Source of the DNA: SAR86 cluster bacterium
GTDB lineage: Bacteria > Pseudomonadota > Gammaproteobacteria > Magnimaribacterales > AG-339-G14
Length of the DNA: 64,000 nt
Assembly: GCA_023703675.1 (NCBI GenBank)
Contig: CP097974.1
Span: forward strand, 271,288 to 335,287
Reading direction: 5' to 3'
How positions within the stretch are numbered: position 1 is the first letter of the stretch; every line of letters begins with the position of its first letter. This document shows positions 10,265-48,083 of the stretch, in pieces. The notes beneath the pieces were generated by a model. The model was not told where the DNA came from, searched no databases, and was given only the letters and a program-made list of their open reading frames with translations. A program made the position numbers and the translations under genes.

Positions 10265-10283
10265 GAACATAAATACATTTTAG

Positions 10284-10312
10284 TTGTGTATTTAGCTAGT
10301 CTTAACTAGAAT
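10284..10312 (+). promoter_or_regulatory. Sigma70-type promoter of groES-groEL
   Basis: TTGTGT (10284-10289), a 17-base spacer and TAGAAT (10307-10312) lie 45 bases upstream of the groES ATG, followed by a good ribosome site (AAAAGGAG). No convincing sigma32 (heat-shock) or HrcA CIRCE element is visible in the gap. This is a pattern match, not a mapped start. Confidence 0.6.
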
Positions 10313-10357
10313 GCGCATCTTAGACATTTATTAAGAATTTTTTAAAAGGAGAATTAA

Positions 10358-10651
10358 ATGAAATTTAATCCACTTGGCGATAAGCTCCTAGTAAGAAGAG
10401 GAGAAGAAGAAGAAACCTCTGCCGGAGGTATTGTGCTGCCTGGTTCTGCAGCTGAGAAACCCTCTCAAGGAGAAGTTCTCGCAGTTGGACCTGGAAGGAC
10501 TTTAGATAATGGAGAAGTCTCCGAAATTCCAGTGAAGGTAGGCGATATAATTGTTTTTGGTCAATACGCTGGAAGCAACACAATTAAAGTAGATGGTGAA
10601 GAGCTTTTAATTTTATCTGAGAGCGATTTACTAGGAACTGTTTCAAAATAA
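10358..10651 (+). CDS. groES: Co-chaperonin GroES
   Basis: Seven-subunit lid of the GroEL folding chamber. The N-terminal [14 protein letters not shown], the mobile loop with [13 protein letters not shown] at about residues 19-31, and [12 protein letters not shown] are all canonical. At 97 residues it is the normal length. A strong ribosome site (AAAAGGAG) precedes the ATG. groEL follows after 23 bases with its own AAGAGG site, in the usual two-gene operon. Confidence 0.98.
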
Positions 10652-10671
10652 TTAAACTTACAAAGAGGTAA

Positions 10672-12321
<1,650 letters not shown>

Positions 12322-36592: not shown

Positions 36593-37783
36593 ATGAATTT
36601 TAAAGTAAAAACATACAATGCAATAGCTGAAACTGGCATTTCTCTTTTAAATGAATCTAAATTTGACGTCTCAGAAGAGCTTAAATCGCCGGACGCATTA
36701 TTACTAAGAAGTTTTAAATTGACTGAAGAAGATATAGAAAGTTCGCTCAAAGCTATTGCGAGAGCCGGGGCGGGAGTAAATAATGTTCCTGTTCAGCAGT
36801 GTTCAAAAAATGGTGTTGTTGTCTTTAATACACCTGGTGCGAATGCAAATGCAGTAAAAGAGATTGTCTTAGCTGCTTTGCTACTATCTTCTAGAGGCAT
36901 CTATAGCGGAGCAAATTATATAAATGCTATTGACGGAGTAGATGCAACGAATTTAAAAGGCCATATAGAACAAGGAAAGAAAAATTTTAAGGGAAGAGAG
37001 CTTAAAGACGCTACTCTGGGTGTAATTGGTATGGGTGCAATTGGAGCTAAGGTTGCGGACATGGGGGTTATGTTGGGAATGGAAGTTATTGGCTACGATC
37101 CTGCAATATCGGTAGAAGCGGCATGGAAACTACCAAATTTAGTCGCAAGAAGAGAAGATATTGAAACGGTTTTTTCGGAATCTGATTACTTAACTCTTCA
37201 TATACCTGCCATTGAAGAAACCAAAAACTTGGTTAATGAAGATCTACTAATTAAAGCTAAAAAAGGTTTAAAATTAATCAACTTTGCTAGAGATGAAATT
37301 GTTGACTCAACTGCAGTTATAAAGTCTCTTGATGCAGGAAAATTGGGGGGCTATGTTACTGATTTTGCTGATTTGGATTTAATTGATAGGGCTAAATCTC
37401 ATGGCGACGTGATAATTCTTCCACATATCGGAGCTAGCACTCGTCAAGCGGAAGAAAATTGCTCTTTAATGGCAGCAGAACAACTTATTGATTTTTTAGA
37501 AAACGGAAATATAAAAAATTCCGTTAATTTTCCCGAGTTAATTGAACCAAGAAGGTCCAAGTTTCGAATTACTCTTTCAAACAATAATATTGCAGGAATG
37601 ATTGGACAGATGACAACGATTCTTGCTGAAAATAACTTAAATATCTTAAATATGGTGAATAAAAGTAAAGGGGAGATCGCCTACAATGTCATAGATGTAG
37701 ATTCTGAGCCTTCAAAAAGTGTAATAGAAGGTTTATCAAAACTAGACGGAGTCATTACAGTGAGGATTCTCAGTGATGGATAA
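36593..37783 (+). CDS. serA: D-3-phosphoglycerate dehydrogenase
   Basis: First step of serine synthesis. The NAD-binding motif is GVIGMGAIGAKVADMGVMLGM near residue 142. The 2-hydroxyacid dehydrogenase signatures include LINFARDEIVD and ILPHIGASTRQAEENCS with the catalytic His. A C-terminal ACT domain (GMIGQMTTILAENNLNILNM) implies serine feedback. Its 396 residues match the short SerA form. It overlaps the following SDR gene by 11 bases. Confidence 0.93.
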   Translation: MNFKVKTYNAIAETGISLLNESKFDVSEELKSPDALLLRSFKLTEEDIESSLKAIARAGAGVNNVPVQQCSKNGVVVFNTPGANANAVKEIVLAALLLSSRGIYSGANYINAIDGVDATNLKGHIEQGKKNFKGRELKDATLGVIGMGAIGAKVADMGVMLGMEVIGYDPAISVEAAWKLPNLVARREDIETVFSESDYLTLHIPAIEETKNLVNEDLLIKAKKGLKLINFARDEIVDSTAVIKSLDAGKLGGYVTDFADLDLIDRAKSHGDVIILPHIGASTRQAEENCSLMAAEQLIDFLENGNIKNSVNFPELIEPRRSKFRITLSNNNIAGMIGQMTTILAENNLNILNMVNKSKGEIAYNVIDVDSEPSKSVIEGLSKLDGVITVRILSDG

Positions 37784-38531
37784 ACCAGTTGCCATAGTTA
37801 CGGGTGCCAGCAGAGGGGTAGGCGAAGCAGTTGCAATTTTACTTGCAGAAAAAGGATGGAACCTAACTTTGACTTGCTCAAGTTCACTGAAAGAGGCAAA
37901 AAAAGTAGCAGAAAAATGTAATGAATTAGGTTCAGAGACTTTAGTTATCGCAGCCGACGTATCAAACGAAGAAAAGTGTAAAGATACAGTGCAAAGTACT
38001 TTGGAAAAATGGGATAGATTGGATTCCTTAATTAATAATGCTGGCACAACAGTCTTTAATCCCCACGATAAACTTGATGGGCTGAGCACCGAAGACTTTA
38101 TAAAAATTTATAAAACCAATACTGTTGGTCCTTATATGATGATTAAAGAATCAGAAGAATATTTAAGGAAAAGTTCTATCGCATCAGTTGTAAATATTGC
38201 TTCAATAGCTGGAGTAATTGGTGTGGGAAGTTCAGTAGCATATGTAGCTTCTAAAGGCGCTTTGGTTATGATGACGAAGTCTCTTGCAAAGGCACTTGGT
38301 CCAATCAGAATTAATGCAATTTGCCCTGGATTCATTGAAGGTGAGTGGCTGAGATCAGGTCTTGGAGACGAAGCCTATGATTTTACAAAAAATGCTATTG
38401 AGGCTAGCACACCTTTAAGCATGGTTTGTAATCCTGAGAAGGTAGCCAAGGGTGTTTGGTTTTTTATAGAAGACGCAGTTGCAACCACAGGTGAAACTTT
38501 GGTTCTGGATGGTGGATTCCACTTGAAATAA
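37773..38531 (+). CDS. Short-chain dehydrogenase/reductase (SDR)
   Basis: A 252-residue SDR. VTGASRGVGEAVAILLAEKGW is the NAD(P)-binding turn, NNAGTTVF the NNAG motif, and NIASIAGVIGVGSSVAYVASKGAL carries the catalytic Ser, Tyr and Lys. The GETLVLDGGFHL ending is typical. Substrate cannot be assigned. It overlaps serA by 11 bases, so it is translated with it. The long AT-rich gap follows its stop. Confidence 0.82.
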   Translation: MMDKPVAIVTGASRGVGEAVAILLAEKGWNLTLTCSSSLKEAKKVAEKCNELGSETLVIAADVSNEEKCKDTVQSTLEKWDRLDSLINNAGTTVFNPHDKLDGLSTEDFIKIYKTNTVGPYMMIKESEEYLRKSSIASVVNIASIAGVIGVGSSVAYVASKGALVMMTKSLAKALGPIRINAICPGFIEGEWLRSGLGDEAYDFTKNAIEASTPLSMVCNPEKVAKGVWFFIEDAVATTGETLVLDGGFHLK

Positions 38532-38916
38532 GTTTAAAGTTGTCTAAAAGAATCATATTGAAAAAAAATAATATTTTAAAAAAAAAATCAATCAAATTTT
38601 TTATTTTTTTAGATTAAATGTTGATAAAAAATTTTCTCTTTAGAAATTATCAACCAATTCTTTTTAAAAGTTACACACAAATAAATGCTTTTGTTCCAAA
38701 CGAATAAATAAATAAAAGAGAATTGCACTTTTATTGAACATAATATTATAAACATTGTAAAGTACTGATTTTATTGACTTTTTTATATTGATCAATTTTT
38801 AACCAATTTATTAAAACCCTTTTTATATTAAGCATTTAGAAGAATTAAATGATTTTATCCAAAGAGTTATCCACAGAAACTGTGGATAAAAAAAATGCTT
38901 TTGTTAGCATAATTTA
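38532..38916. other. AT-rich gene-free region with DnaA boxes and a direct repeat
   Basis: 385 bases with no credible ORF, very AT-rich with long A and T runs. It holds a DnaA-box cluster at its right end (38855-38889), weaker 7-of-9 matches at about 38648 (TTATCAACC) and 38671 (TTACACACA), and a 13-bp direct repeat AAATGCTTTTGTT at 38683-38695 and 38893-38905. It lies upstream of ung. It looks like a minor origin-like or DnaA-binding locus. Gene orientation on both sides does not show the divergence expected around a replication origin. Confidence 0.6.
38855..38889 (+). promoter_or_regulatory. DnaA-box cluster with perfect inverted pair
   Basis: TTATCCAAA (38855-38863, one mismatch), TTATCCACA (38867-38875, perfect) and TGTGGATAA (38881-38889, perfect, reverse). 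The two perfect boxes form a 10-bp inverted repeat (TTATCCACAG / CTGTGGATAA) around AAA. It ends 27 bases before the ung ATG. Confidence 0.65.
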
Positions 38917-39585
38917 ATGGTTTTAAATCTGCCAAAAAATTGGGAATACTTTTTGAAAGGAAGAGATGTAGAAAAGTCACTGCTATCAATTAAATCCTTA
39001 TTAGAGAAAGAAAAAAAATTAGGAAAGGAAATTTATCCAAGCACTGAAAATATATTTCGAGCTTTGGAGTTAGTAAGCCCAGGAGATGTCAAAGTAGTTG
39101 TTGTAGGTCAAGATCCTTATCATGATATTAATCAAGCAAATGGGCTGGCCTTTTCAGTTAATAAAAATAATACGATTCCACCCTCACTGAAAAATATTTA
39201 TAGTGAAATCAAAAGAGATCTTAACTCTGAGACATTGCAAACTGGAGATCTAACTCAAATTGCAAAACAAGGCGTCTTATTTTTGAATTCCGTGTTAACA
39301 GTAGAGGCTCATAAACCTGGTTCACATGTAAATATAGGATGGCAAGAAATTACTGACTCTATAATTTCTCTTTTGAGTTCAGAAAAAAATATTGTATTTA
39401 TGCTTTGGGGAAATTTTGCCCAGTTAAAAGAAAAATTTATAGATTTAAATTCTAATCTTGTTCTTAAAACATCCCATCCTTCACCCTTATCGGCTTATCG
39501 AGGCTTTACAGGGTCTCGACCTTTTAGCAAAAGTAATAAATTTTTAAAATCCAAAGGAAAAAGGATCATTGACTGGAGTTTGTAG
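38917..39585 (+). CDS. ung: Uracil-DNA glycosylase
   Basis: Removes uracil from DNA. The catalytic-water motif GQDPYHDINQANGLAFS is complete. FMLWGNFAQLKEK, then HPSPLSAYRGF with the catalytic His and minor-groove loop, follow near the C-terminus. At 222 residues it is full length. A DnaA-box palindrome lies directly upstream; whether it regulates this gene is unknown. Confidence 0.97.
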   Translation: MVLNLPKNWEYFLKGRDVEKSLLSIKSLLEKEKKLGKEIYPSTENIFRALELVSPGDVKVVVVGQDPYHDINQANGLAFSVNKNNTIPPSLKNIYSEIKRDLNSETLQTGDLTQIAKQGVLFLNSVLTVEAHKPGSHVNIGWQEITDSIISLLSSEKNIVFMLWGNFAQLKEKFIDLNSNLVLKTSHPSPLSAYRGFTGSRPFSKSNKFLKSKGKRIIDWSL

Positions 39586-47617: not shown

Positions 47618-47620
47618 AAC

Positions 47621-47649
47621 TTGCTTTTTTTAGGGCTTTGTACTAATAT
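47621..47649 (+). promoter_or_regulatory. Sigma70 promoter of the glutamine-riboswitch transcript
   Basis: TTGCTT (47621-47626), a 17-base spacer and TAATAT (47644-47649), beginning 4 bases after the era stop. It predicts a start near 47656 and a leader of about 200 nt. This makes the small gene an independent transcription unit. Confidence 0.7.
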
Positions 47650-47660
47650 TGCACAATAAT

Positions 47661-47791
47661 CGTTCATCTTTTGCACTAACTTAATGCAAAAGACGGAAGT
47701 AGGAAGATAGGAAAACCTCTTTCTTCCCAAGGGAGGAAAGGTTAGCAAGTACCCAATGTGGGAACGAGACCGAATATCTAACGAAGGAACG
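47661..47791 (+). promoter_or_regulatory. Glutamine riboswitch (glnA / Downstream-peptide type)
   Basis: P1 pairs CGTTC (47661-47665) with GAACG (47787-47791). P2 is a perfect 9-bp stem TCTTTTGCA (47667-47675) / TGCAAAAGA (47685-47693). The conserved aptamer strings GACGGAAGTAGG (47692-47703) and GAAGGAACGC (47783-47792) are those of glutamine-binding aptamers. Between them lies a long insertion with stems CTTTCTTCC/GGAGGAAAG (47719-47727/47732-47740), CCC/GGG (47752-47754/47760-47762) and GTTAG/CTAAC (47741-47745/47778-47782). This longer P3 side fits the Downstream-peptide subtype. A GGGA-loop hairpin (47806-47821) separates it from the ribosome site GGAGG at 47845. I infer control of translation. 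Confidence 0.88.
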
Positions 47792-47855
47792 CGTTGAGAA
47801 GGGTGTACGTCGGGAGACGTATGTACGAAATCGAAACGAAAACTGGAGGCATGAT

Positions 47856-48014
47856 ATGACTACTTACTATAGAGGCGTCAAAGTCAACTCTGATAATTCT
47901 TCTTCAAGTAAAGCTTCGAAAGCAGGAATTTACAGAGGAGTCAAACACGACGGACAAAACAAGAAGTCAGCTAAAACACCTGGTATTTACCGCGGTGTAG
48001 AAACAGCTGCATAA
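47856..48014 (+). CDS. 52-residue YRGV-repeat protein (DUF4278 / PirA-like)
   Basis: Small soluble protein with three copies of the motif YRGV, at residues 5-8, 26-29 and 45-48 (YYRGVKV, GIYRGVKHDG, GIYRGVE), joined by Ser/Lys-rich linkers. DUF4278 proteins of cyanobacteria carry such a YRG motif. One of them, PirA of Synechocystis, binds PII and relieves its activation of arginine synthesis. The start is ATG 47856, with GGAGG 6 bases upstream; the ATG at 47851 is too close. It is 40% G+C with C-ending codons, unlike its AT-rich neighbours. Regulation is by the glutamine riboswitch just upstream. The PirA role is inferred. Confidence 0.85.
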   Translation: MTTYYRGVKVNSDNSSSSKASKAGIYRGVKHDGQNKKSAKTPGIYRGVETAA

Positions 48015-48033
48015 CTTTTTTTAAGTTAGAATT

Positions 48034-48063
48034 AGGGAGGCTTAACAGCCTCCCTTTTTTTTT
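48034..48063 (+). terminator. Intrinsic terminator of the riboswitch cassette
   Basis: AGGGAGGC (48034-48041), loop TTAACA, GCCTCCCT (48048-48055), followed by a T-run to 48063. It is a perfect 8-bp stem, the strongest terminator in the window. It ends the small transcript before recO. Confidence 0.93.
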
Positions 48064-48083
48064 GATAAATTAACTAACAAAAA

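Follow-up and report, generated by a model that had tools for sequence, protein, structure and literature searches.

A probable DARS of the IHF- and Fis-dependent kind, with a class-wide layout of its own, upstream of ung in SAR86

The function of DARS sites was worked out in E. coli. These sites free ADP from ADP-DnaA, and DARS2 requires both IHF and Fis (PMC4245941); DARS1 is not known to require either of them (PMC5742627). The DARS cores have a common structure with equal spacing and a reversed box I (PMC5742627), and the head-to-head placement of boxes I and II is essential and differs from oriC (PMC10380432). In E. coli DARS2, the published order of elements is core-IHF-Fis, and shifting the IHF site by 5 or 10 bp reduces activity (PMC4245941). 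In E. coli, much DnaA is bound at DARS sites and at datA alike (PMC12371093). In the available parts of PMC4245941 and PMC8682772, the IHF and Fis sites of DARS are followed only into close relatives of E. coli. Here, we compare with these systems an intergenic locus of a SAR86 cluster bacterium, which in our assessment is probably a DARS of the IHF/Fis-dependent (DARS2) kind whose layout is distinct and class-wide, located in the ung promoter region and predicted to release ADP from DnaA.

The three-box core and its intergenic island

The window analyzed is a 64,000-nucleotide stretch (positions 271288 to 335287) of a single 1,194,046-bp contig. Its relevant features, with offsets counted from box III and with IHF and Fis sites given as matches to the consensus sequences in PMC4245941 rather than as footprints, are as follows.

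37773 to 38531, + strand: SDR-family oxidoreductase gene, the upstream neighbor of the island, not constant across the order
38532 to 38916, no strand: intergenic island of 385 bp with 19.0% G+C, between the SDR-family oxidoreductase gene and ung
38671 to 38679, + strand: outlying DnaA-box-like sequence TTACACACA, offset -184
38758 to 38770, + strand: IHF-consensus site TAAAGTACTGATT (TAAnnnnTTGATW, one mismatch), offset -97
38790 to 38804, no strand: Fis-consensus site GATCAATTTTTAACC (GnnYAnnnnnTRnnC), offset -65
38855 to 38863, + strand: weak DnaA box III, TTATCCAAA, one mismatch, in the place and orientation of box III of E. coli DARS1 and DARS2
38867 to 38875, + strand: perfect DnaA box II, TTATCCACA, 3 bp after box III
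38881 to 38889, - strand: DnaA box I, TGTGGATAA on the + strand (TTATCCACA on the - strand), head to head with box II over 5 bp
38902 to 38910, + strand: possible extended -10 element (TG-T-TAGCAT) of an ung promoter, read from the alignment and absent from the promoter-scan output
38917 to 39585, + strand: ung, uracil-DNA glycosylase (NCBIfam TIGR00628, 240.4 bits against a cut-off of 185.75), the gene behind the array in the SAR86 order

The core, TTATCCAAA-GAG-TTATCCACA-GAAAC-TGTGGATAA (positions 38855 to 38889), has the arrangement III-N3-II-N5-I, in which box I faces the other way from boxes II and III. The DARS1 core of E. coli K-12 (bioD-uvrB) reads TAATACACA-TGG-TTATCCACA-GGAAT-AGTGGATAA, and that of DARS2, close to mutH, is TTCTTCACA-ACT-CTATCCACA-GAAAA-GGTGAATAA; the SAR86 core is identical to both in box orientation and in its 3- and 5-bp spacers. 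The perfect boxes II and I form the palindrome TTATCCACAG-AAA-CTGTGGATAA with 10-bp arms. An initial sequence-only reading of the window had described three close DnaA boxes, two of them perfect and forming such a palindrome, in an AT-rich gap, and this description was confirmed (whole-genome G+C content is 34.2%). However, the same reading called the island the largest gap without any gene or RNA, whereas it ranks third by a crude measure, the stretches of the window without ORFs of at least 100 amino acids. The larger gaps are 466 bp (47618 to 48083, with a glnA-type glutamine riboswitch at 47659 to 47795 on the + strand) and 410 bp (10265 to 10674) long. An Rfam scan identified no RNA family in the island (38532 to 38916).

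The array is exceptional in its genome. There are 15 perfect TTATCCACA boxes (7 forward and 8 reverse), from which ~5e-5 exact inverted pairs at one fixed spacing are expected per genome by arithmetic. Among the 137 boxes of the TTWTNCACA type, only two pairs of neighbors lie within 60 bp of each other, that of the island and one beside dnaA. Self-overlap aside, the III-N3-II-N5-I array is unique in the genome at up to 7 mismatches in 27, and a control with reversed boxes gave three weak places. The same scan revealed no second trio at uvrB or elsewhere in the genome. A lone perfect DnaA box, not accompanied by a trio, is located at contig positions 678189 to 678197, ~460 bp from uvrB on its upstream side, the place of DARS1 in E. 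coli. We considered and rejected a chance pair, since the array is unique in the genome and is conserved before ung in all 49 regions described below. Similarly, the 10-bp arms have the potential to form a hairpin, but a transcription terminator or a palindrome of chance origin is highly improbable: the terminator scan returned nothing in the island, no T-run follows the stem on either strand, and the identity of the boxes is conserved, as are sites located 65 to 185 bp away.

Genomic position and conservation before ung

The dnaA gene is found at contig positions 100 to 1425, i.e., ~100 bp into the contig, and the cumulative GC skew of the whole contig is lowest at 1,193,973 and highest at 619,175. 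Because the skew minimum and dnaA coincide, the chromosome origin is most likely beside dnaA. Over the ~200 kb to each side of dnaA, the skew changes much less steeply than in the remainder of both arms. The island (at 310,142) lies in noncoding DNA ~310 kb from dnaA and the skew minimum, on the rising limb of the cumulative skew. The sequence-only reading had likened the island to an origin and had proposed whole-genome GC skew and the position of dnaA as a check; carried out here, this check placed the minimum away from the island, and the likeness did not hold. An active or former replication origin would account for the A+T-rich sequence with DnaA boxes and IHF and Fis consensus sites, which are also present in E. 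coli oriC. We nevertheless regard this explanation as barely credible, given that the skew minimum and dnaA are together elsewhere, the boxes of the array are head to head rather than head to tail, and the flanking genes, both on the + strand, do not diverge, as had been noted before. In addition, sampled skew in two relatives (G059 and G042) showed no falling-to-rising turn at the array (in G042, the skew maximum is not far from the locus), and no dnaA match was identified in the 30 class loci first fetched. Expressed as a fraction of the genome, the distance from dnaA to the ung/array locus is 0.26, 0.31, 0.34, 0.36, and 0.37 in five closed order genomes whose contigs start at dnaA (G000, G059, G041, G042, and G045, respectively) and, taken the other way round, 0.40 in the sixth such genome (G040).

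A Ung match was obtained in 53 of the 61 genomes searched, and 50 regions upstream of ung were read (30 plus 20), one of which was left out as its contig ends too early. The trio with both spacings was present in all of the 49 readable regions, box II being mismatch-free in 49 and box I in 48 of them, while box III varied in sequence (TTATCCAAA, TTATCCATA, TTATCCCAA, TTTTCCCCA, and others). The absence of the boxes from relatives, which the sequence-only reading had named as a possible refutation, was thus not borne out, conservation being nearly total. The gene upstream of the array changes between families, and the array and ung are constant. A search for the palindrome alone (at most one mismatch) was positive for 172 of 203 order genomes and for 38 of the 40 of good quality, and its backwards control was 0 in every row. 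Six of the relatives without a Ung match (G016, G023, G026, G027, G031, and G036) also lacked the palindrome, a joint absence that fits assembly gaps.

A second head-to-head pair was observed in SAR86 family f2, between gcvT-like and aminotransferase genes, in the five genomes looked at (L194, L200, L201, L202, and L203; the genes were named for one pair). One of its boxes is AGTGGATAA, as in E. coli DARS1, and a Fis consensus is found at -53 or -54 in four of the five.

The constant ung neighbor would suit a DnaA-controlled promoter, at which DnaA, Fis, and IHF repress or activate ung and no DnaA is reactivated. In each of the 49 readable regions, ung directly follows the core, whatever the upstream gene, and the -35 element of the putative ung promoter would coincide with box I, as judged from the alignment. 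However, the same geometry with the same IHF and Fis offsets occurs before priA and other genes in other families, the core geometry is found in E. coli upstream of uvrB and near mutH, and it stays constant while the downstream gene changes. Outside SAR86, array and ung were both listed for 18 genomes, and comparison by hand showed them adjacent in none, many of these assemblies being in pieces. Promoter control as the sole function is therefore unlikely, but the array may possibly have a second role at the ung promoter. As a DARS, the SAR86 element happens to precede ung, its layout of core, Fis site, IHF site, and outer box being found across the Gammaproteobacteria.

Upstream sites in SAR86 and related arrays in the class

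The IHF and Fis sites recur at fixed offsets on the box III side of the core. In the 49 order regions, the IHF consensus with at most one mismatch was found at -98 ± 2 in 39 regions (11 of 13 genera) and the Fis consensus at -65 ± 2 in 43 regions (11 of 13 genera), the maxima over any offset in 60 rounds of dinucleotide shuffling being 4 and 2, respectively. The outer box TTACRCACA at -185 ± 2 was found in 29 regions and 5 of 13 genera (shuffled maximum, 1). The IHF match at -98 is mostly absent from family f4. Family f2 includes one genome, G040, in which both the IHF site and the outer box lie roughly a helical turn farther out, at -109 and -199.

In most members of families f1 and f2, the IHF site lies between the outer box and the core. 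Such a placement, as in datA (PMC5742627), would be expected if an IHF bend between the outer box (-184) and the core promoted hydrolysis of DnaA-bound ATP, or the boxes could simply titrate DnaA, which is held in quantity at DARS and datA sites alike. A datA-like element of this kind is improbable, since the core is a head-to-head trio with DARS spacing and the box near -185 is confined to 5 of the 13 SAR86 genera. The titration site suggested by the sequence-only reading is partly right because DARS sites also bind DnaA; what does not agree with it is the architecture, which points to reactivation rather than to a passive sink.

We also scanned 369 gammaproteobacterial genomes for the full three-box array with at most one mismatch and detected it in 90 of them (a backwards control gave 0 in every row). 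Of the 90, three are SAR86 genomes; the other 87, from 57 families, yielded 101 distinct arrays, all of which were read. An IHF site was present at -99 ± 2 in 65 of the 101 arrays (43 of 57 families; single-base shuffle maximum, 4), a Fis site at -66 ± 2 in 45 arrays (28 families; maximum, 5), and a further DnaA-box-like site at -177 ± 2 in 71 arrays, or 69 with another window (42 families; maximum, 6). All three sites were present in 22 arrays, and 8 arrays had none of the three. In 18 or, by a second count, 17 of the 101 arrays, a reverse box lies over the Fis site near -67, which recalls, by analogy, the competition between ATP-DnaA and Fis at E. coli DARS2 (PMC8682772). Since the class arrays peak at SAR86-like offsets, the SAR86 layout is the common one, and that of E. 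coli the deviating one, among arrays found with a pattern that favors cores close to itself and that, at one mismatch, misses the cores of E. coli.

The gene for the replication restart helicase PriA was located directly downstream of 41 of the 101 non-SAR86 arrays (by tblastn in L102 to L131 and L245 to L315, two representatives being named by NCBIfam). No SAR86 DARS, ung-linked DARS, or priA-linked DARS was found in the literature searched, which covers few subscription papers.

Proposed function and comparison with known elements

Candidate trans-acting factors were recognized in the SAR86 genome. Searches by tblastn with E. coli proteins identified Fis (47% over 70 residues), IhfA, an IhfB-like protein, HU, and Hda, and the best NCBIfam matches agreed for each factor; IhfA scored above the NF001401 cut-off, and Fis (93.9 bits against 99), IhfB, HU, and Hda were below their curated cut-offs. 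The host thus encodes IHF and Fis, with Fis and IhfB recognized as best matches below cut-off. For E. coli SeqA, Dam, MutH, and DiaA, there was no tblastn match in the genome better than an E value of 0.59. Of the 442 residues of the SAR86 DnaA protein, 252 are shared with E. coli DnaA, and K178, R227, R285, and L290 are retained; R227 (AID-1) and L290 (AID-2) are important for ADP release (PMC4245941). Residue R245 of the E. coli B motif, which takes part in binding of the single-stranded DUE (PMC5742627), is a glutamine in SAR86 DnaA, as it is in all six of the eight order loci in which this stretch was found.

The mechanism is most likely IHF- and Fis-assisted release of ADP from head-to-head DnaA, every biochemical step being carried over from E. 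coli. ADP-DnaA would occupy the head-to-head boxes I and II, and another DnaA molecule box III, while IHF would bend the DNA at -98 and Fis would bind at -65. The assembled complex would drive ADP off DnaA, and the freed DnaA could then take up ATP and start replication at the origin beside dnaA. This suggests that an abundant, streamlined ocean bacterium that is uncultured and has no detectable SeqA, Dam, or DiaA nevertheless runs a DnaA-ATP/ADP cycle. The tightly spaced layout of IHF, Fis, and DnaA-box sites, different from that of E. coli and common to the SAR86 order and many of the other 57 families sampled, also provides a defined set of sites on which to test how bending of the DNA leads to ADP release.

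A broader reading, which we put forward only tentatively, is that a box at -177, IHF at -99, Fis at -66, and the core represent an older standard gammaproteobacterial DARS, of which the E. coli sites would be rearranged or stripped descendants; within this reading, a faint IHF-like stretch in DARS1 could be a trace of the ancestral layout. In this reading, the element would also tend to precede genes of genome maintenance, namely ung in SAR86 and priA in many other bacteria, with uvrB and mutH nearby in E. coli, and might thereby couple DnaA recharging to the expression of repair and restart genes.

Among the known elements, the oriC of the SAR86 genome resembles the array in having two perfect inverted TTATCCACA boxes (contig positions 18 to 26 and 46 to 54) but differs in that these are spaced by 19 bp, adjoin dnaA, and lie at the skew minimum. 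Like datA as described in PMC5742627, the array combines DnaA boxes and an IHF site in noncoding DNA; however, in datA it is boxes 2, 3, and 7 with IHF that drive ATP hydrolysis, and no DARS trio is described for it in the available part of that source. With DARS1, the array shares the core geometry, the perfect box II, and the position upstream of a DNA repair gene. In E. coli DARS1, the IHF-like stretch at -99 is very weak, with two mismatches, and, unlike in the SAR86 array, there is no Fis consensus within 200 bp upstream. With DARS2, it shares IHF and Fis sites on the box III side and an intergenic location away from oriC, although the neighbor is ung and not mutH. In our scan of E. coli DARS2, IHF sites were found at -87 and -71 and a Fis site at -125, in agreement with the published order, whereas SAR86 has the reverse order and other distances, with Fis at -65 followed by IHF at -98. 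The forward IHF site of E. coli DARS2 and the SAR86 IHF site differ in offset by ten bp, close to one turn of the helix.
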